From a virus, in IMG/VR virus record IMGVR_UViG_3300044742_000097, positions 1 through 64,000 of that record: a stretch of DNA of 64,000 bases; one strand, written 5' to 3'. The translations under genes were made by a program, and so were the position numbers. Of the stretch, positions 5,156 through 57,904 are shown one piece after another. Position 1 is the stretch's first letter. Each line of letters starts with the position of its first letter. The notes beneath the pieces are model-generated. The model made no database searches. It worked only from the letters and a program-made list of their open reading frames with translations, and was not told the DNA's origin.

Positions 5156-5156
5156 G

Positions 5157-5807
5157 TTACACCGTCCTTCGGATGGTCGTACGATCGATAACTCGTTGTA
5201 GATCCTGCGTGCTGAGCGCGGCTAGTTCACCAGCGTAGGAATCCTTCCACTGCTGAGTCCAGGGTCCGTCCTTCAGAAACGGTTCGGCCTGTACGAGCGA
5301 GCCGTAGAGCAAAGCCTGAGGAGCGTAGTCCGTAAGCCAGTTCGTCATGTTCACGGCGTCGAGTAGCGGCGGCTGCTGCCAGTAGTTCCACTCATACGGA
5401 TACGCTGCGATCGGAGTCGGGACGATGATGATGTGCTGATAGTCGTAGTCCGCGTAGAACTCCGGAACGTCCCGCACCGCTGTATTCGGCCAGTAGCTCC
5501 GACAGTACTCATACGGCCGGGGAAACAGAAACCGCCTCTCCTGGTCCGGAGGAGTCCCAATTCCGAAGTTGATAGAGGCCGTCGCCCGCCAACGATCGGG
5601 CTTAGCATAAATGCCGGCCCCCGCAACCATCGTATCCGTGACCGGGAGTAGAAGACCCAGGATCTTCAACTTCGTCGCGATGTCCCGCTCGGCCAGATTT
5701 ATCAGACTTGGGATCTGATCGAAGACCGTAGCATCAGACACGAAGCCCCTCTCCAGGTATCGTTGGATATCCTGGAAGAGAGACGGATAAGTCATGGACA
5801 CCGGCAT
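5157..5807 (-). CDS. Head-to-tail adaptor, SU10/gp6-like
   Basis: The 216-residue protein starts MPVSMTYPSLFQDIQRYLERG and contains the YAKPDRW signature, then FLFPRPYEY and the Tyr/Pro segment IIIVPTPIAAYPYEW. The C-terminal helices carry ALLYGSLVQAEPFL. This order of features is typical of the phage adaptor family that docks below the portal and joins it to the tail hub. The tail-hub gene two positions downstream supports the call. The start is an ATG, with no close overlap. Confidence 0.75.
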   Translation of the reverse strand: MPVSMTYPSLFQDIQRYLERGFVSDATVFDQIPSLINLAERDIATKLKILGLLLPVTDTMVAGAGIYAKPDRWRATASINFGIGTPPDQERRFLFPRPYEYCRSYWPNTAVRDVPEFYADYDYQHIIIVPTPIAAYPYEWNYWQQPPLLDAVNMTNWLTDYAPQALLYGSLVQAEPFLKDGPWTQQWKDSYAGELAALSTQDLQRVIDRTTIRRTV

Positions 5808-5819
5808 GTCGGTTCTCCG

Positions 5820-6149
5820 CTACTCCTGTGGATCGACAGGTTCCGTTGACTGACCCTTCCGGGCCGCGACCTTCGCTTTCGCATCGGCCACCGTAGCGAG
5901 AGCCGCATCCAACCGGGTCGTGAACTCGAAGAAGTCCTGAGGGGTTGGCTGAACTCCAGCCTCGGCCATCCCCTTGATTCGCTCGGCGAACTCCTTCAAA
6001 GCCTTAGCCGTCTTCGCTCCGCCCTGAACCAGTTGGATGAGATGTCCGATGATACGGAAAGTATCCGCATGATTCATCCCACCTCCCCCGAGACGCGGAT
6101 TCGAGATCAGAGTCTGAATCGCGAGAAGGGCCATGGTGATTGGGTCCAT
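5820..6149 (-). CDS. Small helical hypothetical protein
   Basis: A 109-residue mostly helical protein with a hydrophobic N-terminus (MALLAIQTLIS), a GGGG linker and an Ala/Lys-rich C-terminal coil. Its start shares bases with the stop of the upstream lipoprotein gene, suggesting coupled translation. It sits between the lysis genes and the adaptor. I do not recognise the family. The short hydrophobic start could be a weak membrane anchor. Confidence 0.6.
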   Translation of the reverse strand: MDPITMALLAIQTLISNPRLGGGGMNHADTFRIIGHLIQLVQGGAKTAKALKEFAERIKGMAEAGVQPTPQDFFEFTTRLDAALATVADAKAKVAARKGQSTEPVDPQE

Positions 6150-6559
6150 TAGTGTTGTGCTCCTCTGAGTGCGGCCTTGAGATCATCGATCACCGGACCC
6201 GACTTCGTAAGCCACGAATCGAGACTGGCCATTGTCGCGTTGAATCTTCCCTGCTCGGCTGCGTCCACCTTGAAGGCTGCGGTAGCCGCCTCAGCCTCCG
6301 TGTATGCCTTCAGTCCGGCTTTCGCGAACGCCCCGCCCTTCTCAGCCGCTGCGATCAATGGAGTCTGAACGTTGTCCGGAAGAGTGTCCGGCGCCAAGAG
6401 CGCGGCGATCTGCTCGACTCCAATCGTAACGGACCCATAGGCGGCGAGAGCCTTCTGCTGGACCGTCTCGGCCTGTGCGATCGGATTGAACTGAGCGCAC
6501 GCCGCGATCGTTACGATCGCCAGCGCTACCCAGACATCCGCGAATTTACGTAGGACCAT
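6149..6559 (-). CDS. Putative phage lipoprotein
   Basis: The 136-residue product has an N-terminal hydrophobic leader (VWVALAIVTIAAC) ending in a lipobox-like TIAAC. Signal peptidase II would cleave before Cys21 and leave a lipidated, Ala-rich helical domain in the periplasm. It stands directly after a membrane protein and an M15 peptidase, so an outer-membrane lysis (o-spanin-like) role is possible, although typical o-spanins are shorter and Pro-rich. It may instead be a superinfection or envelope protein. The lipobox is seen directly; the role is inferred. Confidence 0.6.
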   Translation of the reverse strand: MVLRKFADVWVALAIVTIAACAQFNPIAQAETVQQKALAAYGSVTIGVEQIAALLAPDTLPDNVQTPLIAAAEKGGAFAKAGLKAYTEAEAATAAFKVDAAEQGRFNATMASLDSWLTKSGPVIDDLKAALRGAQH

Positions 6560-6571
6560 GGGCTACTCCTT

Positions 6572-6982
6572 TTATTTACCAGCGAGAACTGTGGAACGAG
6601 TACCGACCGGGTTCAAGTCTGCGAGTGAGTTGATCGCATACCCGATGCTGACGGCGCTGATGAAGTTCAGCGTACCGGTGTCTATCAGCAGGAAGAACGC
6701 GATTGAGTTTCCGAACAGAGTCGTAAGCGTCTCCTGCCAGTGGCCCAGAAGGCCGCCGATGGTCGCCGTCGCGCCGTCCATCTTCGCCGCTCCCCACTGC
6801 TTGATCAGAGACACGACGGACCCCGCGATCATTAGAGCGTACAGAACGTATGGATTCGCGAGAGCGCTCTTGATTTCCCCAGTCTGATCCTGCGCGAGTA
6901 CGCCCCCGGCGAGTAGAACCATAGCCAAGAAGAACATTACCCCAATACGATCACTCAAAACGTCTTTCCAGTAAGCTTTCAT
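6572..6982 (-). CDS. Integral membrane protein, candidate holin
   Basis: The 136-residue protein has about three hydrophobic segments: VMFFLAMVLLAGGVLA near residues 15-30, VLYALMIAGSVVSLI near 47-62 and a longer one near 88-120 (SIAFFLLIDTGTLNFIS). A Lys/Gly-rich loop lies between the second and third. The next gene downstream encodes a lipoprotein and the one upstream an endolysin, a typical lysis order. It is somewhat longer than classical holins. The membrane location is clear; the holin role is inferred from context. Confidence 0.6.
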   Translation of the reverse strand: MKAYWKDVLSDRIGVMFFLAMVLLAGGVLAQDQTGEIKSALANPYVLYALMIAGSVVSLIKQWGAAKMDGATATIGGLLGHWQETLTTLFGNSIAFFLLIDTGTLNFISAVSIGYAINSLADLNPVGTRSTVLAGK

Positions 6983-6990
6983 AAATCCTC

Positions 6991-7407
6991 CTAAACGACC
7001 TTTTCAACGTGTGGCGCATCAAGAAAGGACTCGTCCGGGTCTCGCCCTACTGACCTGAAGTCCCCGTCCCAGTCCATTCCGAATCTAAGTTTGACCCCGT
7101 GGCGGTAAGCGACGGCCTGTACCACTCCCATGATACGCCCGAAGGCGATGAGGTCGTCCCAGTCGATTTTCGTACCTTCTTGGAAGTAAGTAGGCGCGAG
7201 GTCAACTGCGAGAGAAGGGATGGCGTTGTGCTTTCCATGTGGCCAATGAAGCTTGGTCGCTCCACGCTCGAAAGCGGCCTCCTGTGCCTCTTGACCTCGG
7301 TGACCCTCCAAGACCGTAAGGGGAACGATTTTCTCTGCCTCATAAACAACTTCCCGCAGATACGAGTCTACGGTTTCTAGACGCTCCATGGCGGCGGTAG
7401 ACAACAT
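6991..7407 (-). CDS. M15-family peptidoglycan endopeptidase (endolysin)
   Basis: The 138-residue protein matches M15 L-Ala-D-Glu or D-Ala-D-Ala peptidases. The zinc site is visible: His in GKHNAIPSLAVDLAP followed by Asp in AVDLAP (the SxHxxGxAxD-like motif), and the C-terminal His in DAPHVE. FGMDWDGDF between them carries the expected acidic residues. It has no leader, so it would need a holin to reach the wall. It is placed directly upstream of the candidate holin. It would cleave the peptide cross-links of the wall at the end of infection. Confidence 0.85.
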   Translation of the reverse strand: MLSTAAMERLETVDSYLREVVYEAEKIVPLTVLEGHRGQEAQEAAFERGATKLHWPHGKHNAIPSLAVDLAPTYFQEGTKIDWDDLIAFGRIMGVVQAVAYRHGVKLRFGMDWDGDFRSVGRDPDESFLDAPHVEKVV

Positions 7408-7764
7408 CTATTGCTTCAGCGCCGTAAGGGCTGCCTGTGCCGCCGACAGATCGTTCCGAGCCGCCTGAAGATCTCCCGCGTCTCGAACGGTCCAGCAGTC
7501 CGGAGACGCACCACACATGTCGCGCTTGAACTCCAAAGCGATGATCGCGTTCTGCAGATTCCGAACCGTGGCCGTAATGGTGATGATGTTCGCATCCTGG
7601 ATCGGCTTGATCTTCTGCTCTAGCTGCTTCTCGATCTCTCCAGCCAGTGCGGTCTCTGCGATCGGAGCCGCAAATAGCCAGATGGATCCTAGCGTAGCCG
7701 CGATAGAAGCCAGGGTACTTACGGATACCGTAATGCCCTGGTCCTTCGTCATGTTTATTCCCAT
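7408..7764 (-). CDS. Membrane-anchored coiled-coil protein, candidate i-spanin-like
   Basis: I start at ATG 7764, behind AGGAG. The 118-residue protein has one N-terminal membrane segment (TLASIAATLGSIWLFAAPIA) followed by a long helix with heptad-like spacing (EIEKQLEQKIKPIQDAN) and two Cys in CGASPDCW. A single membrane anchor plus a periplasmic coil resembles an inner-membrane spanin, and the gene touches the endolysin gene. Spanin function is a guess from topology and place. Confidence 0.55.
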   Translation of the reverse strand: MGINMTKDQGITVSVSTLASIAATLGSIWLFAAPIAETALAGEIEKQLEQKIKPIQDANIITITATVRNLQNAIIALEFKRDMCGASPDCWTVRDAGDLQAARNDLSAAQAALTALKQ

Positions 7765-7773
7765 CAAGTGCTC

Positions 7774-9567
7774 CTAGGGGTTGCCCTTCATGTACGTGAA
7801 AGTTCCGAGTAAGGACACGCCCTTCTGGTTGGCTGACGTCCAAGTCGTGCCGGTGCAGAGATTAGTCCCGCCGCGTAAGAATGAGAGGTTCCCGCTGGAG
7901 TTGATCGAGATACAGGCGCCTACCTCGTCCACGCTATTGTCCTGAACTGCGACGGGATACGAGGCAACCACGCTCGTATTTCCAGGACGTATCGCGGCCG
8001 GAACATCCGCCGTCGTTGATGCGAAGGTCGTCGCGTCGCTGGTGCAGGTTGCGGCGCTACGAGCCACGAGTTCCAGTGTGACGACGTCACCGATCGAGTA
8101 ATAGTCGAATGTCGCCGTGTAGTCCGTGGTACAGGCGTTCTGGAACGTAACTACGAATGAGCCTGTCTTTGGACTCATATCGACGCCGTTCGAGTCTACC
8201 GCAGTTGTGTCGATCTCGGTGAGTGAGCCGTCTCCGGCGATCTGAACGCGCTTCGTGTTCGACGTGCCGAGCAGCATCGGCTGACCGCTCCCGGTGAACA
8301 CGGCTACCTGGAATCCTGTCGGTCCGTTCGTCAGAAGAGCCGAGCTGAGATTGCCGGTCTGCTCGATCGAGATGTGGCGAGTTCCGTCGGTCGCTCGAAC
8401 GACCGCGCCCGCCGAAGTACCGGCATTGCTATTCAGCGCTTCGAGTCCGGTGACGACGTTGTTAGAAGACTCAGTCGCCTGGAACGTACCCTGAAGAACT
8501 CCAGACGTGATGGTATTCGCCGATCGATTCAGCGTGAGACATTCGCCGATCGCCGTGCGCGCATCGTCGGAGGTGCAGATCGCGAACACGCCAGCGTCAT
8601 TGCGAATGTCCCAGATCTTGAGATCCGTACCGGCGTTGCTATCCCTAAACTGTGCAACGGGGAGCGTCGAGTTCAGCAGGACAGCCGGAACCGATAGCGA
8701 GCCCACCGCAGAGAACGTAGCCTGATTCGCGGTGGTCGTGGTCCCCGTAGCTACGTCGAACTCGACCGCGCCTCCGTTCGTGTTAACTGATAGCGTATTG
8801 TCGATAGTCACCGGTCCTTGAATCGAGACTCCCGCCGTCGTACCGAAGGTGATTCCGCCGGACGTGAAGGCCACCACGTTCGTGCCGCCAGCGAGAATAT
8901 TCACGCCGTTCGCGGCGGGATGACGGAGCCCGGTATCTGGATCACCGACGAATGCGTAGGACGCGGTACTAATGGCCCCGTCGCCGGTGAAGATGTGACC
9001 AGCGGAGGTTAGATCATCACTCGCGGCTATGTACGTGAGTCCGGCGTCTCCGGCGAATGCTCCCATCGCGTTGTACTGGACTTGGGTGTCGGCTCCGGCT
9101 GCGGGCGTAGATGCTGCCGCCCAGGTACCATCACCCCTCCAAAACGTAGAACCACTCGCCAAAGTTCCGCTATTGAGATTGGTAATGGGAAGGTTGCCCG
9201 TGACGCCGTTCGCCAAATTAACCTGCGCCCACGCCGGATTGTTCGAAGCCCCCGTATTCGAGATGTACCGCGTAGCGGATGTATTCTTTGCCAGAGCGGA
9301 TAGGGTGTTCACCCCCGAAGCAAATAGCGTATCTCCCTGAACAGTCCCGGGAACCGAACTTCCAGCTCCGCATCCGGTACAACCCCCCATGACCACGAGG
9401 GCGTCATTGACGGTGACGCTGCCCGTCCCGTTGACGATGTCGCCGCGCAGATCCGATTGTCCATTGACCCGGATCGAACTGAATATCGTCGGCGTCTGCG
9501 CTTCGAGGATACCCCCGATAGCGAAGCCGAGCGTGACAAGAAGAACCTTGTTCCAGTTAATCTTCAT
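7774..9567 (-). CDS. Fibre-like protein with Sec-type leader
   Basis: The start is ATG 9567, overlapping the previous stop as ATGA. The 597-residue protein begins with a Lys-containing n-region and hydrophobic core ([17 protein letters not shown]) that looks like a Sec signal. Then come Gly/Thr/Asn-rich beta repeats with the fibre motif [12 protein letters not shown] and [11 protein letters not shown]. The last 130 residues ([19 protein letters not shown] onward) form a Cys-containing domain that recurs in the proteins at 12,744 and 13,438. It is probably an appendage or host-surface protein. A leader on a fibre is unusual. Confidence 0.65.
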
Positions 9568-10808: not shown

Positions 10809-11212
10809 GCGGCCTCCTCTACGATCATGTCCTCAGCGTCGTCGGTCAACATACTCTCGTCTCCGTCTGTGAGCATCAAGAAGTCTTCTAGGGTTGCGAA
10901 CTCGACTTCGATTGGATGATCGCTCTCGGTGAAGATCAGGATTCGTTCATCGGCCTCGGTGCACAACGCGAAGTAATTGTCGATGTCGTTCGTCAGCGGA
11001 GAGTCCGGCCGCGTGAACGGGAGCGAGATGTCCTCCGTCTGTCGAGCGGGCAAGCGGTAAGGATCAAGAACGTCCAAGTCCGCCAGACAGACGCGAAGCC
11101 CCGGTGAATTCGGATCGGGATACAGGTCCTCGATCGAGAACTTCTCGTGGCACCGGTCGCAGGTCCCCAGCCCGTAGGTCGAGCGTCCGGTCGGATCTAG
11201 CCACTGACTCAT
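10805..11212 (-). CDS. Small zinc-ribbon-like virion protein
   Basis: The 135-residue protein has CDRCHEKFSIEDLYPDPNSP followed by a third Cys in LRVCLADLDVLDPYRLPAR, an arrangement that may bind zinc. The C-terminal half is acidic. I have seen this pattern in structural regions of environmental podoviruses, near connector and fibre genes. Overlaps of 4 bases on both sides suggest coupled translation with the connector gene upstream. A structural role is inferred. Confidence 0.6.
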   Translation of the reverse strand: MSQWLDPTGRSTYGLGTCDRCHEKFSIEDLYPDPNSPGLRVCLADLDVLDPYRLPARQTEDISLPFTRPDSPLTNDIDNYFALCTEADERILIFTESDHPIEVEFATLEDFLMLTDGDESMLTDDAEDMIVEEAA

Positions 11213-12258
11213 CGCGTATAGACTCCGATGTTCGGGGTGAGCATGGTCGAGCTAGTGTCAGACTCCCCATCCCACATGTCACTCCAAGCCGAGGCCGCCT
11301 CGATTGGCAGGTTGGGGTCGGGCTTAGCCTCCTTGTCGACCAGCGAGAGATCGAACCCGAGGTTCAGGACGAGTGCCCGGTATGCGCTCTGTCGGAACTG
11401 AATCTCCTGCGCCATCGTCCCTACGTCCTGCACCTGGTACTGGAGATACGCCACGAGGTTCCAGAACCGCGAGATCTCCCCCGGCCCGGGCCACATGGTC
11501 ACGATCTGCTGTGTCCGCTGCTTATTGAGCCAATACGAAGTCGGCTGCCCGAGCGAGGTCTTGTCGGGTAGACTTGCGTAGTTGTCGAGATTCAACTCGG
11601 CCATGTTGGTCTCGCTTGGAGTATTCGCGAGCACCAGCTCCTCGACGTTGAGGATCGTACCGCCTGTGGCCTGTAGGCGGTAGTAGGACCACTCCTCCAT
11701 TCCCTCGACATCGAACCAGAACCACTCGCCGTCTACGACGACCTGGGCCGTGGCCGTGTAGAAGGTCGTGAAAGCGACCCCGTCATTCGATCCCTGCATC
11801 GTATAGCTCCAGGTCCCCGAAGCGCCTGGAAGTATCCCGAACATCGGAACTCGGGTCGCACCGTCGGTTAGCTGAAGCTGAATCCACCCATTAGCCAGGG
11901 TAATGCACTCGGTGGCAAAATCCCCGTCGAACGCATTGTCCGCTGTACCGGCCGACGACGACCCTGTTCCGGAGAGCCGGTTGATGCGGCGGAGATTGAT
12001 CTCCATGATGTCCGTTACGCCGACGGGGAGTGGAACCGATTGCCGGGCTACGTAGAGGGGCAGGATTGTCTTCTGGATCAACCAGAGGGGAATACCTCTG
12101 TTCGCCATGGCTGAGAGACGAAGGAACAGCCAGTCATTGGCGACCTCGATCCGTTCCGGCGTTATCTCCTGCCGGACGATCTTGCAGACGCCGTAGGCGT
12201 TGTCTATGACCTTTCGGGTTGAGAACCGAGTAAGTCCGACTGTTCCAGACGTAGCCAT
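11209..12258 (-). CDS. Connector-like protein with inserted discoidin-like domain
   Basis: The 349-residue protein has a helical N-terminus (about 1-90, ending VPLPVGVTDIMEINLRR) and a helical C-terminus (about 235-349, with TMWPGPGEISRFWNLVAYLQ). Both look like a tail-connector or adaptor. Between them (about 95-215) lies a beta domain with DNAFDGDFATECIT, WSYTMQGSNDGVAF and WSYYRLQATGG, the pattern of F5/8-type C (discoidin) carbohydrate-binding domains. The insertion would face outward from the virion and could bind glycans. The domain calls are from motif reading. Confidence 0.65.
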   Translation of the reverse strand: MATSGTVGLTRFSTRKVIDNAYGVCKIVRQEITPERIEVANDWLFLRLSAMANRGIPLWLIQKTILPLYVARQSVPLPVGVTDIMEINLRRINRLSGTGSSSAGTADNAFDGDFATECITLANGWIQLQLTDGATRVPMFGILPGASGTWSYTMQGSNDGVAFTTFYTATAQVVVDGEWFWFDVEGMEEWSYYRLQATGGTILNVEELVLANTPSETNMAELNLDNYASLPDKTSLGQPTSYWLNKQRTQQIVTMWPGPGEISRFWNLVAYLQYQVQDVGTMAQEIQFRQSAYRALVLNLGFDLSLVDKEAKPDPNLPIEAASAWSDMWDGESDTSSTMLTPNIGVYTR

Positions 12259-44745: not shown

Positions 44746-44843
44746 AGGGGCAAAACATTCTGCACCCTTCATCTTCCCAAGCGCCGCAGCGAACGAGTAT
44801 CTTACGCTCGACGACTAACCAAAAAAACTTGCGGAGACAGACA

Positions 44844-45383
44844 ATGCCCCTAGTAGTCTTAGAGGGAGCCGATGGCTCCGGAAAGAGTACGCTTGCGCAC
44901 AAATTACTCAAAGGGACCGGGCAACCGACCCTCTTGGTAAAGCGGTCCGGCCCACCCGGATCCATCGAAACCCTTGTCTTCATGTCTGAATGGCTATCCC
45001 AGCAGGGTAGGATCGGACTCAACATTATAGCCGATCGACACCCCATTATATCAGAAGCCATATACGGTCCAGTAGTGCGCAAGGCACCAGGTCCGTACTG
45101 GAGTATGGAGGACGCTTACCGAGCGCTCAAGCGTCACAACATCCTTCTGGTCTACTGCCGAACGGATATGGGCAAGCTACTCGAAGGAGCCCAGCAAGAG
45201 GACCAGATGGCCGGAGTCCATCAATACTACTGGGACCTCGTGAAAGAGTACGACCGGTGGATGGACTACTTCCAAGACAAGGGAATCGCTTTCTACCAGT
45301 ATAATTGGGCGAACGACCAGGACGCCACGAAGGCCATTAAGAACATCCGAACATTCTGGGAGGGGAAATGGAAGATCGACTAA
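44844..45383 (+). CDS. Deoxynucleoside monophosphate / thymidylate kinase-like
   Basis: ATG 44844 follows GCGGAGACAG. The 179-residue protein begins VVLEGADGSGKSTLAHKLL (P-loop, residues 5-14). The later IIADRHPIISEAIYGP and the C-terminal helix resemble thymidylate kinases. It would phosphorylate dNMPs, possibly a modified one, to diphosphates. It opens the nucleotide gene cluster. Substrate is not shown by sequence. Confidence 0.75.
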   Translation: MPLVVLEGADGSGKSTLAHKLLKGTGQPTLLVKRSGPPGSIETLVFMSEWLSQQGRIGLNIIADRHPIISEAIYGPVVRKAPGPYWSMEDAYRALKRHNILLVYCRTDMGKLLEGAQQEDQMAGVHQYYWDLVKEYDRWMDYFQDKGIAFYQYNWANDQDATKAIKNIRTFWEGKWKID

Positions 45384-45973
45384 GAGACATCTTCGATCAC
45401 AAGGTCGTATCGAGCACGGAGTTTCGGGGAGTGCAGAGCGTACTTGGTATGCTCGATCCGAAGCTGGTTATCGTAGCGGACTGGAAGACTCGCGAGGGGA
45501 CGATCGAGTTGCACAAGGGGCTCCATTGGATAAACCTGGAGCTGGCCGAGTTCCTAGGCGCGTCGAGTTCTGAGCAGTTCGAGGAGCTAGCGGACGTGCT
45601 CCACTTCCTCGTGGAGTTCTGTATTCTGTGCGGAATCGATCACACCGTCATCGACGAGGAGAAGGACCTGGACCGTCTGGATGTGGTCTTCAATGCGTCC
45701 CTCGGCGATCCGTTCGTATTCGAGGACGCACACACGAACGCCCGATTTACCATGCACTCTGTTCTTCACGTCGCCGAGCTGCTAAAGAACAAACCGTGGA
45801 AACAGACCCTCAAGCTCGAACGAAACGAGAAGGATTTCATCCGACGGGTAAAGGGAATGTGGTACTGGTACGGAGCGACTTGTCGTACGGCGGGCATGAC
45901 TCCGCAGAACCTCTATGACGAATTCGTCCGGAAAGAAGAAATCAATCACAACCGAGTGGCTACTGGAGTATGA
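45368..45973 (+). CDS. Dimeric dUTPase-like protein
   Basis: The 201-residue protein is all-helical with HWINLELAEFLGASS, EQFEELADVLHFLVEFCIL (the E-x-x-D metal motif) and LERNEKDFIRRVKGMWYWYG. This matches the dimeric all-alpha NTP pyrophosphatase (dUTPase) family of phages. It converts dUTP to dUMP, protecting DNA from uracil and feeding thymidylate-type synthesis. It overlaps the kinase gene by 16 bases. Confidence 0.75.
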   Translation: MEDRLRDIFDHKVVSSTEFRGVQSVLGMLDPKLVIVADWKTREGTIELHKGLHWINLELAEFLGASSSEQFEELADVLHFLVEFCILCGIDHTVIDEEKDLDRLDVVFNASLGDPFVFEDAHTNARFTMHSVLHVAELLKNKPWKQTLKLERNEKDFIRRVKGMWYWYGATCRTAGMTPQNLYDEFVRKEEINHNRVATGV

Positions 45974-48137: not shown

Positions 48138-48316
48138 ACCGCGTCGAGATCCTAGAACAGGTCAAGCGATTCGGGCGAGCAGTCCGGTCTATTCCCGATA
48201 CGAGAATCAAGATCGAAGGCGAGCAGCCGATGACCGAAGCGCAGGCAATCGCGTGGATCGAGCGACAGAGCCTCATCCAGTGCCCATGCTGTGGAAAATA
48301 CAGGAAGAAGAAATGA
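48134..48316 (+). CDS. Small zinc-ribbon-like protein
   Basis: A GTG start overlaps the previous stop (GTGA). The 60-residue protein has RVEILEQVKRFGRAVRS and ends CPCCGKYRKKK, a possible half zinc knuckle. It is coupled on both sides. The role is unknown. Confidence 0.5.
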   Translation: MNRVEILEQVKRFGRAVRSIPDTRIKIEGEQPMTEAQAIAWIERQSLIQCPCCGKYRKKK

Positions 48317-48696
48317 GAATCGCAATCACGGGTGTTCCACACGGGGGCAAGACCTATACGGCCAAGCTCCTCAGCGCCGTCCTCGAAATCCCCTATAGTG
48401 GGACAGACGACGTAATGCACCTGGAGTGGAGCGAGGGCAGCCGGATCGTGAGCGAGTGGTTCGATAAGCCGGGGCCGTGGATCATTGAAGGTGTTGTTGT
48501 GCCTCGGGCAATCCGGAAGTGGAGGGCTCGATTCGCGGACGACAAGCCAATCCCAGATCCGCCCTTCGACAAGCTCATCGTCTTACGGGGGACGGGATCG
48601 ACGCTGCTTCGCGGTCAGGAAATCATGGGCAAGCAGGTCCTCGGACTCATCGACACGTACAAAGACTGGATCGGAGAGAGGTGGATAGAAATATGA
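48313..48696 (+). CDS. P-loop kinase-like protein
   Basis: ATG 48313 overlaps the previous stop. The 127-residue protein begins RIAITGVPHGGKTYTAKLLS with a P-loop (GVPHGGKT). Then come IPYSGTDDVMHLEW and PWIIEGVVVPRAIRKW, like small adenylate or nucleotide kinases. It could phosphorylate a nucleotide or, as in some modified-DNA phages, a base substituent. This is speculative. Confidence 0.65.
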   Translation: MRIAITGVPHGGKTYTAKLLSAVLEIPYSGTDDVMHLEWSEGSRIVSEWFDKPGPWIIEGVVVPRAIRKWRARFADDKPIPDPPFDKLIVLRGTGSTLLRGQEIMGKQVLGLIDTYKDWIGERWIEI

Positions 48697-49058
48697 TACT
48701 GCTAGAATTTCCGCTAGAGGCACTCCAAACCCTAGGGCCAGATCAGCTCCCTCGGGTACGGGTAGCGTTTCCGCAGGGGTCGCAGATTCTCCACCTGGGA
48801 TCGACCGGGCCGGACAAGCCCATCTGTCTCTGTGTCCTCGCGCCACTCCGACCGAAGAACGCCGACGGCACCGTCAAGGAGCTTGCTCCTCACGAGGTAG
48901 CGGTCCTGGAGTTCATCGTCGCGGTTCCGGGCAATCTTGTGCCAGAGGGATACGTCTTCCGCGCTCCGGTCCGAACACCCGAGGGCGGACTAATTTATCT
49001 ATTCGAGAAAAGAGACACCTCCCCACTACTCGTTCCAGGAAGGATAGCACGAGCATGA
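48693..49058 (+). CDS. DUF7352-like small protein
   Basis: ATG 48693 overlaps the previous stop. The 121-residue beta-rich protein has EFPLEALQTLGPDQLPRVRV, GSQILHLGSTGPDKPICLCV and EVAVLEFIVAVPGN, a pattern recurrent in phage early regions (DUF7352-like). Function unknown. It overlaps the ThyA-like gene. Confidence 0.55.
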   Translation: MILLEFPLEALQTLGPDQLPRVRVAFPQGSQILHLGSTGPDKPICLCVLAPLRPKNADGTVKELAPHEVAVLEFIVAVPGNLVPEGYVFRAPVRTPEGGLIYLFEKRDTSPLLVPGRIARA

Positions 49059-49906
49059 GAACCTACGCAAATTTCGAGCGGGCCATCGAATCGATCGGAG
49101 ACCTCATGCGAGTCATGTCGTACGAGGTCAAGGGGGCAAGGTGGCAGTCGATCGACGTATCGACGAAGCCAGAGATGCGGATGAAGGAGGTCCTCAATGT
49201 CTCCTTTCAGGTCATGACGCAGGGGATCGAGGAACCGACTTACTACCACAACGACATCCAACCAAACTATCCGTGGGCCGAAGACCATTTTCAGGAGCGG
49301 GTCGCGGGGCAGCCTCTGAATCCCGGCGAGCAGTGGAAGAACTGGCCCTGGGCCCTCTCGGCCGACAAATTCCGAACCGAAGGCGAGAAGTTCAGCCATA
49401 CCTACATGGAACGGTACTGGCCGAAGAACGCGGGCTCTAAACCGGGCGAGCTTACCTCCAATGGCTTCGACTGTGGAGAATTCGCTCGACACGGGATTCG
49501 GTACAAGTACGGAGACCTTAACGATGTCGTCAACCATCTACTGGGAGATCCGCTCTCGCGACAAGCGTACCTCCCTATCTGGTTTCCGGAGGACACCGGC
49601 GTTGTCCATGGCGAGCGCGTTCCGTGTAGCCTGGGCTACCACTGGATTCTCCGTAACGGATATCTCCATACCACGTATTACATCCGCTCCTGCGATTTCT
49701 ACCGTCACTTCCGAGACGATCTATACCTGAGCATCCGCCTCTCGATCTGGCTCCTCCAGCAGCTCCGAGAGACAGAACAGGCGTCGGATCATCGCCGCTG
49801 GAACGACGTGAAACTCGGTTTCTTCGTTTTCCACTGCGTATCCATGCATATGTTCGTAAACGACTGGAACAAGCTGTATGGCCAAGCTGATTCTGAAAGT
49901 CCCTGA
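49055..49906 (+). CDS. ThyA-type synthase, possible deoxynucleotide hydroxymethylase
   Basis: The 283-residue protein aligns without gaps to the ThyA active site. Catalytic Cys191 lies in GERVPCSLGYHWILRNG, and 20 residues on IRSCDFYRHFRDDLYLSIRL matches the ThyA phosphate and base motif (RSxD). Where ThyA has Asn (the last N of LGLPFN) this has Asp222. In T4 dCMP hydroxymethylase an Asp is found at the equivalent place and favours cytosine. With thyX already present, a modified-base role is likely. Substrate and product are inferred. Confidence 0.75.
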   Translation: MRTYANFERAIESIGDLMRVMSYEVKGARWQSIDVSTKPEMRMKEVLNVSFQVMTQGIEEPTYYHNDIQPNYPWAEDHFQERVAGQPLNPGEQWKNWPWALSADKFRTEGEKFSHTYMERYWPKNAGSKPGELTSNGFDCGEFARHGIRYKYGDLNDVVNHLLGDPLSRQAYLPIWFPEDTGVVHGERVPCSLGYHWILRNGYLHTTYYIRSCDFYRHFRDDLYLSIRLSIWLLQQLRETEQASDHRRWNDVKLGFFVFHCVSMHMFVNDWNKLYGQADSESP

Positions 49907-50237
49907 GGATCTTACGTTCCAGCGAATCTACGATCGTGAGAGGAACGGACTCCGGTGTGTCGAATACCAGTGCGAGCGATACCCCGACCTACGTATCCGG
50001 TCGCAAGGTCCTCCCGCCAACTGGTGGGACTGGACGGCGTACTACGTCCTCGATTCAGCCCTAAACATCGAGGGGTTTATGAATCTGCGTAGAGCCTACA
50101 ACTTTCTGATGTCAAGACCCAGGAGGGTAGTCCGTGACAAGAATATCCCGCGACGAGATGCTGATGGACATCGCATTAGTCGTAAAGCTGAGAAGCACGT
50201 GTCTTCGACGTCAGGTCGGAGCCGTCCTTGCCGTTGA
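49878..50237 (+). CDS. Small protein overlapping dCMP deaminase
   Basis: The 119-residue product starts AKLILKVPEDLTFQRIYDRE and has WWDWTAYYVLDSALNIEG. Its last 35 residues overlap the dCMP deaminase gene in another frame and look basic and disordered. The first part is convincing as a gene; the family is unknown. Confidence 0.55.
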   Translation: MAKLILKVPEDLTFQRIYDRERNGLRCVEYQCERYPDLRIRSQGPPANWWDWTAYYVLDSALNIEGFMNLRRAYNFLMSRPRRVVRDKNIPRRDADGHRISRKAEKHVSSTSGRSRPCR

Positions 50238-50568
50238 CGGTCGTGTTCTATCCTCCGGATACAACGGAGCGCCCGGCGGCCTTCCGCATTGCATTCCTCA
50301 GACATGCAGTGACGAGCGGCCGTGTATCGATACCGTCCATGGCGAGGCTAATGCGATCGCCTTTGCCGCCCGCTACGGAATCCGGATTGAGGGATCCACG
50401 CTTTACACCACGGCATCCCCTTGTCGGGCCTGCGCAATCCTCCTTATCAACGCTGGCATCATTCGCGTGGTCTATGACGAACGCTACCGAGATACTACGC
50501 CGATCGAAGTGATGGAAAAGGCCGGAGTCGTCGTCGAGCGTTGGGTTCCAGTCGATGCCCTCCCTTAA
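50134..50568 (+). CDS. dCMP deaminase
   Basis: A GTG start gives 144 residues with the family start RISRDEMLMDIALVVKLRST, then GYNGAPGGLPHC, the catalytic HGEANAI and zinc-binding ASPCRACA. It turns dCMP into dUMP, which ThyX can methylate or the ThyA-type enzyme may use. Length is normal. It is followed at once by the DNA polymerase. Confidence 0.9.
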   Translation: MTRISRDEMLMDIALVVKLRSTCLRRQVGAVLAVDGRVLSSGYNGAPGGLPHCIPQTCSDERPCIDTVHGEANAIAFAARYGIRIEGSTLYTTASPCRACAILLINAGIIRVVYDERYRDTTPIEVMEKAGVVVERWVPVDALP

Positions 50569-53110
50569 TCCTGCCTGTGAGAAGTGCGGTCTCTATAAGA
50601 CCACCACGGGGACCGTCTGTTTGGCAGGTGAGGGGCCGAGAGACGCTAAGGTCATGGTCGTCGGCGAGGCTCCCGGTCGTGAAGAGGAAAGGACCGGCCG
50701 ACCGTTCATGGGATCATCGGGAAAGAAGCTGCGAGAGGAGCTACGCAAGAATGGTCTGGACGTATTCATTACTAACACGGTTCGCTGTCGACCACCGGAC
50801 AATCGGACTCCTAGTGCGGCAGAAATCAAGGCTTGTCGTGAGTACCTCGACTACGAGATTGGGCGAATCAAGCCTGAGATCGTTGTATCGCTCGGAGCTA
50901 CACCCACGAAAGCTCTCTTCAAGGGCGTCGCGGCAGTCTCGAAACATCACGGGAAGCTAATCCCTCCCGACAAGCACCCGTTCACAGGCTACGTCTCCTA
51001 CCACCCCGCGGCTATGCTCTATAACCCCGGTCTGGAGGTAGACTTCCAACGGGATATCGCCCGGCTTGCGCGGATCGTACGCGACGAACCTCCGCCGGAC
51101 AATACGCTTAACTGGAGTATTCTCAGGAGAGGGAACCTTCAGAAGTTCCTCCGTGAGTTCCGCGCGGCACCTGAGTTCTCGTTCGACTTGGAAACCTCCG
51201 GCCTCTTCATGCACGACGGAAAAGGCTGGATCAACTGCGTCGGTATCGGCCTGAAGAATCGGACGTGGGTTATCCCGAGGATGCGACCGGGCTGGTATCC
51301 GTCGCGAGCTAATCCAAAAAAGCTCAAGTTCCACCGAGGCTCGCCGTGGTGTCGTGGGAAGTCCTTCGAGTTCCTCATGCGGATGATTATCGGCATGGCG
51401 ATCCGGGGGAACAAGGGAGTCATTGCACAGAACGGAAAGTTCGATAACCTCTGGCTACAGCGCTACGTCAAGCGTCGCTTTAGGATCACGTTCGATACGA
51501 TGCTCGCGAGCCACACGCTCGACGAGAACGAGGACCATGATCTTAAGTCGATGTCCCGTAAGCACCTAGACGTGCCCGAGTACGATCTGACGACCGCCGA
51601 GAAGCGCGGCATAGTCGATCCGATGAAGCTGTTTCAGTATAACGCCCGGGACTGCGGATATACCCTCCGCCTGAAGAAGGTCTTTCAGGAAAGGCTTGAG
51701 GAAGAAAAAGACCTGTTCCGGCTGTTCTATGAGCTCGTCATGCCAGCCGTCCGGGCAATGGAGGATATCGAGCTAGAGGGTAAGACGATGAACGTCGAAG
51801 CCCTGGATATGCTCGGGCTCGATCTTCTGTCCCGAGAGATCAAGCTCAAACGAGCGCTGAATAAGCTCGTCGGCAAAGAAGTAAACTGGGGATCGCCGAA
51901 GCAAGTTGGTGTGGTGCTCTACGAGGACCTCGGGATCAAGTGCACTCTCAAGACCCCGAAGGGAGCAAACTCCACGTCCGAGGCGGCGATTCTCGATCTC
52001 AAGGGGAAGCACCCGGTCGTCGACAAACTCATAGAGTATCGCGAAGTCGCGAAATTCAGGAGTACCTATGTCATCGGTTTCAAAGAACTTATGGTCGATG
52101 ACCGGCTCTACATTTCCTACAAGATACACGGTACAGTTACCGGAAGGTACTCTTCTCGCATTCACTCAATACCGCGAGATGGTTCAGTTCGGAATCTGGT
52201 TATCGCTCCTCCCGGGTGGAAGTTCTTCCAGGCCGACATCTCACAAGCCGAGTTGAGGATTATTGCCCAGATGTCGGGCGACCTCGAAATGAGGAAGTGC
52301 TTCTTGGAGGGAATCGACATCCACTGGCGAACTCTCATGTTCGCTATCGCGGCCGGTTATATCAAGGGCGACTATGCGCAGCGGGTAAAGGAGACGGCGA
52401 ACCAGCTAATCCTTGGACACAAGGACGAGGACATATCCATTACCGAGGCGTGCGAGATCTGCCTCGATTACGGACACGAGAAAGCGATCGAGGTCTGGCC
52501 TGGCTGGAAAGAAGGTCGCAAGAAAGCCAAGGCGATCAACTTCGGGTACGTCTATGGGATGTATGAGAAGAAGTTCGTCCAGACCGCCAAAGAGAAATAT
52601 CAATGGGAGCCGACATGGGACGAGGCACACGCCTGTCGAGAAGGCTACTTTCAGCTATACTCCGACTTACCCCGCTGGCACGAAAAGCAGAAAAAGCTCG
52701 TAAAGCTGAACGGCTTCGTCAGGACCTTCTTTGGCAGGAGGCGGAGGCTGCCCGGAATCGAATCAAGCGAGAAAGGGCTTCGCATGGAAGCCGAGCGGCA
52801 AGCGATCAACTCTCCGGTTCAAGGGACGATTGGTGACTGGAAGGCCGCGGTGCTCGTAGAGATGCACGAATTAGATCACGATAAGCTCCGCCTGGTCGGC
52901 GAGCATCACGACGCGCTCCTCGGGTTGGTTCGCGACGGCTGCGAGGACGAGATGTTGCCGAGGGTAATCGAAATCATCCGAAAGCCCCGATTGCTCCGTA
53001 CCTTCAAGATCCGCATGGAGATCCCGATGGACGGCGAGATAGAGGTTGGCCCGTGGGGGGCTGGAAAGAAATACACGCCACCACTTCCAACCGTCGGCAA
53101 AGCGGCGTAG
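50555..53110 (+). CDS. Uracil-DNA glycosylase (family 4) fused to family A DNA polymerase
   Basis: The 851-residue protein has an N-terminal family-4 UDG (1-180): Cys8-x2-Cys11, VGEAPGREEERTGRPF, Cys78 and Cys94 (4Fe-4S ligands) and SYHPAAML. Then a 3'-5' exonuclease (about 200-390: FSFDLETSG, NGKFDNLW, YNARDCGYTL). Last a family A polymerase: motif A QADISQAELR, motif B KAKAINFGYVYG and motif C EHHDAL, where the usual Glu after Asp is Ala. An insertion lies between motifs A and B. UDG-type fusions to PolA are known in some phages. It replicates phage DNA and may remove or sense uracil. Confidence 0.9.
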   Translation: MPSLNPACEKCGLYKTTTGTVCLAGEGPRDAKVMVVGEAPGREEERTGRPFMGSSGKKLREELRKNGLDVFITNTVRCRPPDNRTPSAAEIKACREYLDYEIGRIKPEIVVSLGATPTKALFKGVAAVSKHHGKLIPPDKHPFTGYVSYHPAAMLYNPGLEVDFQRDIARLARIVRDEPPPDNTLNWSILRRGNLQKFLREFRAAPEFSFDLETSGLFMHDGKGWINCVGIGLKNRTWVIPRMRPGWYPSRANPKKLKFHRGSPWCRGKSFEFLMRMIIGMAIRGNKGVIAQNGKFDNLWLQRYVKRRFRITFDTMLASHTLDENEDHDLKSMSRKHLDVPEYDLTTAEKRGIVDPMKLFQYNARDCGYTLRLKKVFQERLEEEKDLFRLFYELVMPAVRAMEDIELEGKTMNVEALDMLGLDLLSREIKLKRALNKLVGKEVNWGSPKQVGVVLYEDLGIKCTLKTPKGANSTSEAAILDLKGKHPVVDKLIEYREVAKFRSTYVIGFKELMVDDRLYISYKIHGTVTGRYSSRIHSIPRDGSVRNLVIAPPGWKFFQADISQAELRIIAQMSGDLEMRKCFLEGIDIHWRTLMFAIAAGYIKGDYAQRVKETANQLILGHKDEDISITEACEICLDYGHEKAIEVWPGWKEGRKKAKAINFGYVYGMYEKKFVQTAKEKYQWEPTWDEAHACREGYFQLYSDLPRWHEKQKKLVKLNGFVRTFFGRRRRLPGIESSEKGLRMEAERQAINSPVQGTIGDWKAAVLVEMHELDHDKLRLVGEHHDALLGLVRDGCEDEMLPRVIEIIRKPRLLRTFKIRMEIPMDGEIEVGPWGAGKKYTPPLPTVGKAA

Positions 53111-54426: not shown

Positions 54427-55264
54427 GACCAAGAAGAACCGACTTCCCTCTGTGGTCCGAGGAATCAAGAGCATTAAGGAGCTGGCCGAGAATATCGTTG
54501 CGCTGTTCTATGGGAAGTCCGGCCGAGGGAAGACCAAGACGGCGGCGACGTTCCCCGGCCCGATCCTTTTCATCGACATCAATAACGAGAGAGGACTCAA
54601 GACTATCCGAAAGGTCAGGGGAGTTGAAGTCGCGAAGGTCCAGAGCTGGGAGGACTTCACCGACCTCTACTGGTGGCTACGCGGAGGCACAAAATTCAAG
54701 ACGGTCGTCCTAGACCAGATCACGGGACTCCAGGACCTCTGTATGAAGGCGGTCCGAGAACACTTCAGGATGGACGACGACGAAGCCTTTCAGGGTTTCA
54801 AGAAGTTCGGCAAGCTATCGGGAGACATGAAGCAGTGGCTCCAGTCGTACCGAGAGCTATCCGATACGTACAACGTCGTCTTCATAGCTCACGAGCGGGC
54901 GTTCGACTCCGACAGCGAGGGAGACGTCAACGACCTGGACCCCTCTGTGTCGGCCCGGGTCATGCCCTCGATCGGCTCGTTCATCGAAGGCGCCTGTGAT
55001 ATTATCGGACAGTGCTATATCCGAAAGTCCAAGGAGAAAAACAAGAAGACTGGGAAGCCGATCGTCCGAACCGAGTACTGCATGCGCGTAGGTCCTCACC
55101 CGATCTATGCGACCAAGATTCGACGCCCACCGGACTATGGCAAGCTGCCAGAGTTCATCGTCGATCCCTCTTACCAGAAGCTCGTGGCCATCGAGGCTGG
55201 TGAGAATTTCAACAACGTTGTGAAGAAGGAGAAGAAGCATGGCAAGACCGAAGCCCGCGCGTAA
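54404..55264 (+). CDS. Sak4-like RecA-fold ATPase
   Basis: The 286-residue protein has Walker A YGKSGRGKTKTAATF (about 36-50), FKTVVLDQITGLQDL as Walker B, and a C-terminal core VRTEYCMRVGPHPIYATK. This is typical of Sak4-type phage recombinases. It likely promotes single-strand annealing with the DUF669-like partner. It overlaps both neighbours. Confidence 0.75.
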   Translation: MPKKILRKTKKNRLPSVVRGIKSIKELAENIVALFYGKSGRGKTKTAATFPGPILFIDINNERGLKTIRKVRGVEVAKVQSWEDFTDLYWWLRGGTKFKTVVLDQITGLQDLCMKAVREHFRMDDDEAFQGFKKFGKLSGDMKQWLQSYRELSDTYNVVFIAHERAFDSDSEGDVNDLDPSVSARVMPSIGSFIEGACDIIGQCYIRKSKEKNKKTGKPIVRTEYCMRVGPHPIYATKIRRPPDYGKLPEFIVDPSYQKLVAIEAGENFNNVVKKEKKHGKTEARA

Positions 55265-56081
55265 GGGCAAAAAGAAGAAGTCAGTTACTGTCTCAATGAG
55301 CGGCGTCGAGTCCGGCGGCCGTTCGATCGAGGATGGCTGGGCGCATGGCCGAGTCAAAGAGGCCGAGCTGACTACCTCGAAGAACGACAACGAGATGTTC
55401 GCCTTGAAGTGGGACGTAACCCGCGGAAAGGAGAAGGCGACGGTATTCGACAACGTCGTTCTCACGCCCAACGCGCTTTGGAAAGCGAAGACCCTGCTCG
55501 AAGCCTGCGGCGTCGAAGTCCCAGACGACGACATGGAACTCACCGAGGACATGTTCGTGGATCTCGAATGCGATGTCGAGATCACCAACGAGGAGTTCGA
55601 GGACAAGGTCCGTCCACGCATCACCGGCTTCCGTGCGCCCGAGGGAACGGATGATGAAGACGAAGAGGACGATGACGACGAAGACGAGGATGAAGAGGAG
55701 GACGAGGACGAAGATGACGAGGAGGAGGCACCTCCCAAGAAAAAGGGCAAGAAGAAGCCCAAGCCTCAAGAGGACGACCCTGAAGAGGACGAGGAGGAAG
55801 ACGACTCCGACGATGACGATGATGAAGACGACGAAGATGACGAGGAGGAGTCCGACGACGACGATGAGGATGAGGACGACGAGGAGGAAGACGAGAAGCC
55901 CAAGAAGAAGAGCAAGAAGAAAGCAAAGAAGCTCCGCGCGGGCATGAAGGTCAAGTTCAAGGACGACAAAGACAAGGCTCGGTCCGGCGTCATTACCTCG
56001 ATCGACGGCGACATCGTCTACGTCGAGGACTCCAAGCAGACGGAGTGGGAGCTGGAAGAGGACGAGATCGAACTCGCCTGA
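55239..56081 (+). CDS. DUF669-like ssDNA-binding protein with extreme acidic tail
   Basis: The 280-residue protein has a first domain of about 130 residues with GRVKEAELTTSKNDNEMFAL and TVFDNVVLTPNALWKAKTLL, the pattern of DUF669 proteins that pair with Sak4. Residues 138-230 are almost all Asp/Glu, broken by KKKGKKKPKP-type islands. The last 50 form a small basic/beta domain (GMKVKFKDDKDKARSGVITS). An SSB-like role with a long acidic tail is inferred. Confidence 0.7.
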   Translation: MARPKPARKGKKKKSVTVSMSGVESGGRSIEDGWAHGRVKEAELTTSKNDNEMFALKWDVTRGKEKATVFDNVVLTPNALWKAKTLLEACGVEVPDDDMELTEDMFVDLECDVEITNEEFEDKVRPRITGFRAPEGTDDEDEEDDDDEDEDEEEDEDEDDEEEAPPKKKGKKKPKPQEDDPEEDEEEDDSDDDDDEDDEDDEEESDDDDEDEDDEEEDEKPKKKSKKKAKKLRAGMKVKFKDDKDKARSGVITSIDGDIVYVEDSKQTEWELEEDEIELA

Positions 56082-56084
56082 TTC

Positions 56085-57470
56085 GTGCTCCGAACTGAGT
56101 TAAGGCCCTACCAGGGCGAAGCCGTTTCGCGTGCTTTAGAGTACGACGGCTTCGCTCTCATTCCCGAGCAGCGTACCGGGAAGTGTTTGATCGCGTTCGC
56201 TGTAGCCGATGCTCGAAAGCCCGATGTCCTTTTCGTAGTTTGCCCGAAGAAGGCTATCAGGGTTTGGAGAGAGCAGCTAAAGGAACATATCAAGTTCGAC
56301 TGGCCTTGCGAAAAGGTTCTAATCCACTACGAGGGGCTTTGCCGATCCGCGAAGGATCGCAGGTGGTGGAGGAATCGGTTTCGCAAGACCTGGGCAGGTA
56401 AGAAGATCCTCACGATCGTAGACGAGGGGCACCGGATCAAGGGCCGAGGATCGCTCCAGTCTACCATGATCCGCTCGCTCGGTAAGATGTCCAAGTACCG
56501 TCTGCTCTTGACGGGGACGCCCGTCGACAAGGTCCGCGAGGACGCCTGGGCGATCATGGATTTCGTACAGCATGGAGCCCTGGAAGATACCTGGGAAGAA
56601 TTCTCAGACCGCTATCTCAAGTACGACGTAGCTCAGAACAAGAAGAGCAAGAGGTTCTACAAGATCGTCACGGGATACCGGAACTCCAAGCGGTTCCGAA
56701 AGATCTTCCAACAATACAGCTACCGGGTAACGCTACGAGAAGCCCAGAGGAGTACCGGGCTGCGGCCCTACCTCGTTCGGAGGCGCGTTGTTCGGTTCGA
56801 CCTTAAGCCCGAGTCGCGCCGGATCTACAACGAGCTAGAAACCGATCTAAAGACCGAGGTGCGAAAGAAGAAAGTCAGTACCCCGTTGGTTGTTACCCTC
56901 GTCTCGAAGCTCCAACAGCTGACGGGCGGGTATCTGATCCATAAGGAACCAATATACGATGAAGACGATATCCCCGTCCTTACTCCCCGGGGGAAACCGA
57001 AAATAATCAAAAGCATCATTCCCATCGGACGGGAAAAGCTGATAGAGTTAGTCAAAGTCGTAAAGCGCTACCCGAAACGAAAGAAGCTTGTTATATGCGT
57101 CCAGTACACTCACGAGATCGAACGCATCGGCCGTCAGATAGAGAGGCTGGGCCGCTCATGGAAGAGGCTAGCGGGTGGAGAGTACTTCGACGGCAAGTTC
57201 GACGCCGATACGATACTGATGCAGATCCGGTCCGGAGAAGCAGTGGACTTGGCGGAGGCCGATACGTTCCTCATGTACAGTTGGGACTACTCCAACATCA
57301 GTCATGAGCAAGCGAAGTTCCGAATCCTAGAATTCACCACGAAGCGGGTTACTTACATCTACTTCATGGCGAACGAGAGCGTAGACGAACAGATCTACGA
57401 AGCAGTCCGAAAGAAGAAGAGCATAACAAGTCTGGTAATCGATAAATACCGAAAGCGGAAGAAACGATGA
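56085..57470 (+). CDS. SF2 (SNF2-like) helicase
   Basis: A GTG start gives 461 residues. Motifs are ELRPYQGEAVSR (Q), PEQRTGKCLIAF (Walker A variant, Cys after Lys), FVVCPKKA (Ia), TIVDEGHRIKGRGS (DEGH in place of DEAH), LLLTGTPVDK (III), and late DLAEADTFLMYSWDYSNISH with QAKFRILEF. It likely remodels or unwinds replication intermediates. It is next to recombination genes. Confidence 0.85.
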   Translation: MLRTELRPYQGEAVSRALEYDGFALIPEQRTGKCLIAFAVADARKPDVLFVVCPKKAIRVWREQLKEHIKFDWPCEKVLIHYEGLCRSAKDRRWWRNRFRKTWAGKKILTIVDEGHRIKGRGSLQSTMIRSLGKMSKYRLLLTGTPVDKVREDAWAIMDFVQHGALEDTWEEFSDRYLKYDVAQNKKSKRFYKIVTGYRNSKRFRKIFQQYSYRVTLREAQRSTGLRPYLVRRRVVRFDLKPESRRIYNELETDLKTEVRKKKVSTPLVVTLVSKLQQLTGGYLIHKEPIYDEDDIPVLTPRGKPKIIKSIIPIGREKLIELVKVVKRYPKRKKLVICVQYTHEIERIGRQIERLGRSWKRLAGGEYFDGKFDADTILMQIRSGEAVDLAEADTFLMYSWDYSNISHEQAKFRILEFTTKRVTYIYFMANESVDEQIYEAVRKKKSITSLVIDKYRKRKKR

Positions 57471-57904
57471 AGATGTCCAAAGTACTCGAAGCCATCCGGG
57501 AGGAACTGAAGAAGCCCCTCCCCGAGCCGAGAGTTGTTGTAACCAAGAAGGAGAGAAAGAAAGTGGCCAAGAAAGCAAAGAAGATCGAGGACGACGACGA
57601 GGACACCGGTCGCGACGATGACGACGAGGATGAAGGCGACGAGGACGACGACGAGGACGACGCCCCCAAGTCCAAGAAGGGCAAGAAGGCGGCCAAGTCC
57701 GCAAAGGGCAAGTCTTCCAAGAAGTCGAAGTCGTCCGACGACGGCGTTTCCATCCAGGAGCTGGCCGAAGAGGCCGGAATCAACGCGCAGTCCGCTCGCG
57801 TGAAGCTCCGCGACGCCGAGTTGGGCAAGCCCGACGGCGGCCGCTGGCGCTGGAAGGAAGGGTCCAAGGACCTCAAGGCCGCACGCAAGGCGCTGGGTCT
57901 CTAG
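57467..57904 (+). CDS. Lys/Asp-rich protein with helical domain, paralogue 3
   Basis: The 145-residue protein starts KMSKVLEAIREELKKPLPEP, has alternating acidic (DDDDEDEGDEDDDEDD) and Lys-rich (KSKKGKKAAKSAKG) runs, and ends in the shared domain VSIQELAEEAGINAQSARVK, GGRWRWKEG and LKAARKALG. It matches the domain of the 30,522 and 34,859 proteins. It may bind DNA through the domain. It is the last gene of the replication run. Confidence 0.65.
   Translation: MKMSKVLEAIREELKKPLPEPRVVVTKKERKKVAKKAKKIEDDDEDTGRDDDDEDEGDEDDDEDDAPKSKKGKKAAKSAKGKSSKKSKSSDDGVSIQELAEEAGINAQSARVKLRDAELGKPDGGRWRWKEGSKDLKAARKALGL

Follow-up and report, generated by a model that had tools for sequence, protein, structure and literature searches.

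Enzymes of the thymidylate synthase (TS) fold that carry Asp at position 177 are already known as a route to modified cytosine. According to the MetaGPA account (PMC8670742), exchanging Asn177 for Asp changes the substrate of TS from dUMP to dCMP, phage contigs with modified cytosine mostly have Asp at 177, and of all positions it is Asp at 177 and an altered residue 147 that show the strongest association with modified cytosine in environmental phages. 5-Hydroxy-dCMP synthases also belong to the TS superfamily (PMC13390438), and in T4 gp42, the dCMP hydroxymethylase, Asp145 activates water and is required for hydroxylation, the D145N variant being inactive (PMC6400193).

The gene examined here, A, lies in the window, by which we mean the first 64,000 of the 70,145 bases of a virus record (Table 1). 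Its ORF runs from an ATG that overlaps the stop codon of the preceding ORF; a full-length relative with 80% identity was found on another contig, and 69 A sequences were aligned. The original prediction of a ThyA-type homologue was borne out by TS-family matches in PHROG (PHROG 160, thymidylate synthase, E 1.4e-26), in the PDB, where the profile of the 69 relatives matched solved TS-fold enzymes (best E 6e-11), and with the AlphaFold model (mean pLDDT 90), whose top structure matches were TS-fold proteins (MilA, AfhB, T4 gp42 and many thymidylate synthases). The single sequence matched Pfam PF00303 with an E of 1.4e-4, under the curated cut-off. These profile and fold matches, together with the catalytic Cys and Arg, place A, though divergent, within the thymidylate synthase superfamily. 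A profile search, which had been proposed as a check, did return TS-fold enzymes, but T4 gp42 ranked well behind AfhB and MilA, AfhB being slightly ahead of the nearly equal MilA. In a core-domain tree A formed its own clade (100/100), and the tree did not settle its placement relative to AfhB, MilA and SPO1 gp29.

Table 1. Positions of the genes and residues discussed, in the window unless another record is named
Feature	Position	Strand	Evidence
A, divergent TS-fold protein, 283 aa	49055..49906	+	ORF (ATG to stop), profiles, AlphaFold model, 69-sequence alignment
A, Arg188 codon	49616-49618		
A, Cys191 codon	49625-49627		
A, Arg211 codon	49685-49687		
A, Asp222 codon	49718-49720		
B, unannotated second TS-fold paralog, 265 aa	46067..46864	+	family profile, AlphaFold, Foldseek, linkage to A
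B, invariant Tyr56	46232		
B, invariant Cys100	46364		
B, invariant Arg122	46430		
B, invariant Asp133	46463		
ThyX, FAD-dependent thymidylate synthase; dTMP source encoded by this genome	37338..38141	+	Pfam 4e-50; NCBIfam 2e-54
P-loop (thymidylate-kinase-like) nucleotide kinase	44829..45383	+	PHROG 761 1.3e-16
All-alpha NTP pyrophosphohydrolase (dUTPase_2)	45368..45973	+	Pfam PF08761 2.6e-6
Small P-loop kinase-like protein, between B and A	48313..48696	+	weak: Pfam AAA_18 E 0.011, below cut-off
dCMP deaminase	50134..50568	+	Pfam PF00383 7e-21; PHROG 174 2e-50
DNA polymerase A with N-terminal uracil-DNA-glycosylase domain	50555..53110	+	domain search
Third paralog, locus L010	2504-3167		
Third paralog, locus L101	10859-11552		
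Third paralog, locus L102	10569-11139		
Third paralog, locus L104	10604-11267		
Third paralog, PMBT14 (L088)	10815-11379		

As had been predicted, A aligns with E. coli ThyA without gaps from Cys191, which falls on Cys146, to RSCD211-214, which falls on Arg166-Asp169, and the spacings of 20 residues from Cys191 to Arg211 and of 11 from Arg211 to Asp222 equal those of Cys146-Arg166-Asn177. The prediction was equally right that Asp222 occupies the position of ThyA Asn177 (Asp in all 69 relatives), that T4 gp42 has an Asp there (Asp179, with Asp likewise in MilA and AfhB), and that A lacks ThyA's LG and PFN residues, RHFRDD standing in their place. Invariant in the 69 A sequences, with ThyA equivalents in brackets, were Asp222 (N177, as D), Cys191 (C146), Arg211 (R166), Arg169 (R126), Tyr117 (Y94), Trp97 (W80) and His265 (H207); the invariance of Asp222, Cys191 and Arg211 indicates that the pattern is not due to chance. 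Arg188, three residues before the catalytic Cys191, is also invariant in the family and occupies the place of T4 Asp145, so A has the equivalents of gp42 Asp179 and Cys148 but not that of Asp145. Asp214, the pterin residue of TS and gp42, is kept in 68/69, whereas the AfhB-like sequences have Asn here (RSxN, 4/4 examined). Glu76 (Glu or Asp in 68/69) is a candidate for T4 Glu60, a residue of folate activation, in a region of uncertain alignment; Asn71, put at the Glu58 position by a first MAFFT alignment, was discarded, comparison with AfhB-like sequences making Glu76 more likely. The A family has Ser/Thr192 at the position of ThyA His147, and the chain stops shortly past the counterpart of His207, with no ThyA-type tail, leaving it with neither the Asn177 nor the His147 nor the C-terminal tail of ThyA.

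Both positions associated with modified cytosine are thus altered in A, 177 to Asp222 and 147 to Ser/Thr192. These two replacements and the missing tail make it very improbable that A synthesises dTMP, as do the ThyX of the window and a natural control in Microbacterium phage Huwbert, where A (gene 67) has as its neighbour a canonical, Asn-bearing ThyA (gene 68). ThyX, which the original prediction placed beside A, is indeed encoded by this phage, at a distance of 11 kb, so the two are not adjacent, and since it co-occurs in only 8/44 relatives we rejected it as a general partner of A. Judged from its residues, recognition of cytosine by A is the best inference, and a modified cytosine nucleotide would most likely be its product. 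Of the modified pyrimidine proposed earlier, 5-hydroxymethyl-dCMP being the example given, the cytosine part agrees with Asp222 and with the gene cassette described below; the hydroxymethyl part is less certain, because invariant Arg188 sits at the T4 Asp145 site, and by profile AfhB is the nearest solved match, slightly ahead of MilA. The Asp is shared by T4 gp42, MilA, the Xp12-like AXL1 protein and AfhB and therefore does not reveal the group added, for which 5-hydroxymethyl is our default guess and 5-hydroxy the main alternative.

The original prediction had overlooked B, a paralogous partner gene of A whose product every annotated record examined lists as hypothetical. The B family (62 sequences, mostly 10-15% identical to the B of the window) has exactly four invariant columns, Tyr, Cys, Arg and Asp, which fall on ThyA Tyr94, Cys146, Arg166 and Asn177 (as Asp), the Asp lying at Arg+11 as in TS. 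In the AlphaFold model of B (pLDDT 93) these residues are placed as in A: a strand begins with the Cys, the next strand ends with the Arg, and the Asp comes early in the helix that follows, the active-site geometry of both models being judged from secondary structure and alignments. Foldseek comparison of the B model with the PDB ranked T4 dCMP hydroxymethylase first (E 4e-6); all of the listed top 50 were TS folds, the highest TM-scores being modest (about 0.42-0.44). Among viral models, uncharacterised proteins came first, followed by thymidylate synthases and dCMP hydroxymethylases. Alignment of the B profile with reference TS proteins by hhalign brought Cys, Arg-Ser and Asp into register at P values of 3e-5 to 7e-6, as against 0.03 or worse for unrelated families aligned with A, B or the TS references; direct comparison of the A and B profiles was weak (P 0.0005 to 0.008). 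Because searches against Pfam (all 62 members) and NCBIfam (one sequence) gave scattered chance hits and no TS match, and the B profile found no match among PDB sequences, the relation of B to TS is visible only by fold and profile-profile comparison. B nonetheless has the fold and profile matches and the catalytic Cys and Arg of the TS superfamily, and lacks conserved counterparts of ThyA Trp80, Asp169 and His207.

In 51 of the 55 A loci for which 5 kb or more of upstream sequence was available, B lies upstream of A on the same strand. A B-seeded search, which used two sub-alignments of B on the DNA collection, yielded 72 loci with A downstream in 71, the remaining contig ending at B; counted from the hit tables, more than half of these contigs were absent from the A-seeded set and some were common to both. 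In Serratia phage Serbin, Strzyga, Pseudomonas phage PMBT14, KimJongPhill and Gordonia phage MaVan the reading frames of B and A share 1-4 bases; in the window, 2.2 kb and other genes separate the two. Cultured phages of Serratia, Pseudomonas, Brevundimonas, Gordonia, Mycobacterium, Microbacterium and Streptomyces carry the pair, which is widespread in proteobacterial and actinobacterial phages. It is essentially viral, since 84,980 species genomes held only nine A homologs, all in metagenome-assembled genomes (seven with B). We found no earlier description of this conserved tandem pair in the literature, and we consider it a stronger finding than the residue reading of A alone.

B is not required everywhere, as four A loci (L009, L011, L015 and L057) are without it. 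The same loci, which may be related to one another, are also without the nucleotide kinase (Fisher p 0.0006), and this joint absence fits B and the kinase working together in a nucleotide pathway. DNA methyltransferase genes occupy the slot upstream of A in all four: a C5-type methyltransferase-like gene in L009 (6450-7703) and L015 (5921-7135), matching PF00145 at about 1e-18 and having GHPECGxFSQ, not PCQ, and an amino-methyltransferase (PF01555) in L011 (7123-8001) and L057 (7084-7998). L011 has, in addition, a C5-methyltransferase-like ORF (4963-7123) with an apparent intein-like insert that starts directly after the HPEC motif.

Two further arrangements were seen. Locus L065 has tandem B genes (5869-7045 and 6984-7968), both upstream of A. 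A third, shorter TS-like paralog of about 190 aa, with GDFCLVGG and FYRSLELIGGFAYDL, was found 3' of A in L010, L101-L104 and PMBT14; it keeps the Tyr, Cys, Arg and Asp, and in PMBT14 it overlaps the gene annotated as dCMP deaminase.

Other genes of nucleotide metabolism surround the pair. The nucleotide kinase is upstream of A in 45/55 loci and the pyrophosphatase, of a family homologous to T4 gp56 dCTPase (profile E 1.3e-14), is near it in 36/55; downstream are dCMP deaminase (62/62) and PolA (51/62). This cassette is the set required to remove dCTP, modify dCMP and feed a polymerase, and it suits a cytosine-modification pathway. No DHFR was found in 44 records, and neither a glycosyltransferase nor a carbamoyltransferase among the scanned subset of window proteins. 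In Gordonia phage MaVan (L091), gene 42 (6825-7583), annotated as lysin B, occupies an odd position between A and dCMP deaminase, and in the replication region of the window the ORFs at 55239-56081 and 57467-57904 contain long acidic (D/E) low-complexity stretches.

Our best reading is a two-component, TS-fold, dCMP-C5-modifying system, with dCMP as the presumed substrate. Given the homology, folds, conserved residues, linkage and cassette observed here, we think it somewhat probable that A and B act together on dCMP, presumably in physical contact, to add a C5 group, and that the modified cytosine enters phage DNA. The gp56-like pyrophosphatase would clear dCTP and yield dCMP. In both A and B the Cys would add to ring C6, the Arg would hold the phosphate and the Cys, and the Asp would pair with the N3/N4 edge of cytosine, A with B placing the group on C5 at the nucleotide level. 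The phage kinase or kinases would then phosphorylate the modified dCMP, and PolA would incorporate the product, giving modified cytosine in DNA. In a separate branch, dCMP deaminase would make dUMP, which ThyX would use for dTMP. B could also act apart from A, or on another substrate. A literature search found no biochemistry or base composition for any phage carrying the pair, and the published accounts of PMBT14, Strzyga and a Knuthellervirus relative do not mention base composition.

The original prediction with B added would be that A works by itself as a T4 gp42-type dCMP hydroxymethylase, producing 5-hydroxymethyl-dCMP from methylene-tetrahydrofolate, with B an accessory or regulatory homolog; we regard this as doubtful. 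A keeps Asp222, Ser/Thr192 (T4 Thr149; Thr in MilA), Trp97 and Asp214 (T4 Asp171), and its Trp97 (69/69), Asp214 and acidic Glu76 resemble those of folate-dependent members; MilA, a CMP hydroxymethylase, is its best single-sequence PDB match, and the absence of DHFR is expected if folate is not oxidised. However, the residue at T4 Asp145, Asp also in MilA and SPO1 gp29, is the invariant Arg188, T4 gp42 is a distant profile match (8e-6 vs 6e-11 for AfhB), and B retains catalytic-type residues that would be needless in a mere accessory protein.

AfhB (9iqu, 9iqc) being the best PDB profile match of A, with a TMt of 0.73-0.76 to its model, one may instead suppose that A works, with B, as a flavin-dependent dCMP 5-hydroxylase similar to AfhB or the Mosigvirus 5-hydroxy-dCMP synthase, making 5-hydroxy-dCMP. 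A and AfhB have in common [YW]AEDxF, which stands at an equal distance from G in both, an Arg at Tyr+3, (Y/W)P, and HxFxxD near a C-terminus without the TS tail. This reading too appears unlikely, as AfhB has Asn at Asp214 of A and Tyr at Trp97, and the core tree does not join the two.

A more elaborate form of joint action, which we offer quite tentatively and think distinctly unlikely, is a heteromeric A-B enzyme with two catalytic centres that would carry out successive C5 steps on dCMP and yield a hypermodified cytosine nucleotide before DNA synthesis. A would make the first product, Arg188 positioning a non-water nucleophile, and B, with Cys-addition chemistry and no folate site, would attach something else to the exocyclic carbon.

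That A is a dCMP methylase of the Xp12 kind, making 5-methyl-dCMP, is improbable. A ThyA in which Asp replaces Asn177 methylates dCMP (work cited in PMC8670742), and A lacks the hydroxylation Asp of T4; yet the Xp12-like AXL1 protein has Pro at 147, a long C-terminal region and DHFR two genes away, whereas A has Ser/Thr at 147, no tail and no DHFR in 44 records. Equally, B is most unlikely to be a degenerate leftover tied to A solely by operon inheritance: it has no conserved equivalents of three ThyA residues and is missing from four related loci, but its linkage to A is maintained in proteobacterial and actinobacterial phages alike, the same four residues are kept in the third paralog, and their invariance at about 10-15% identity points to selection, not decay.

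If the two-component reading is true, it would add a two-component branch to pyrimidine C5 chemistry, many phages would carry a probably unrecognised cytosine modification, and the 'thymidylate synthase' annotations on these genes would need correcting. As cultured phages carry the pair, its chemistry is directly testable by mass spectrometry.

Each described system matches this locus in part. The MetaGPA modified-cytosine contigs resemble A loci in Asp at 177, an altered 147 and co-occurring dCMP deaminase and pyrophosphohydrolase domains; they differ in that the available part of that account (PMC8670742), which also describes a carbamoyltransferase partner, makes no mention of a second TS-fold gene. 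ThyA (PF00303) has the fold and the catalytic Cys-Arg core in common with A, but its Asn177, His147, LGLPFN and C-terminal tail are missing there. MilA (5b6d), a CMP 5-hydroxymethylase and the top single-sequence and fold match, has Asp in the same place; unlike A, it serves antibiotic synthesis with ribo-CMP as its substrate, carries an Asp at Cys-3 and belongs to no phage pair. T4 gp42 corresponds to A at Asp179/Asp222, Cys148/Cys191, Thr149/Ser192 and Trp82/Trp97, and its phage has a gp56-type dCTPase, but sequence similarity is very low, Asp145 stands against the invariant Arg188, and no B partner is annotated beside gp42. AfhB (phage HY126) differs from A in its Asn for Asp214, its Glu for Arg188 and its separate clade; like the Mosigvirus 5-hydroxy-dCMP synthase, it shares with A the TS fold, the Cys nucleophile, the base-position Asp, the short C-terminus and [YW]AEDxF.
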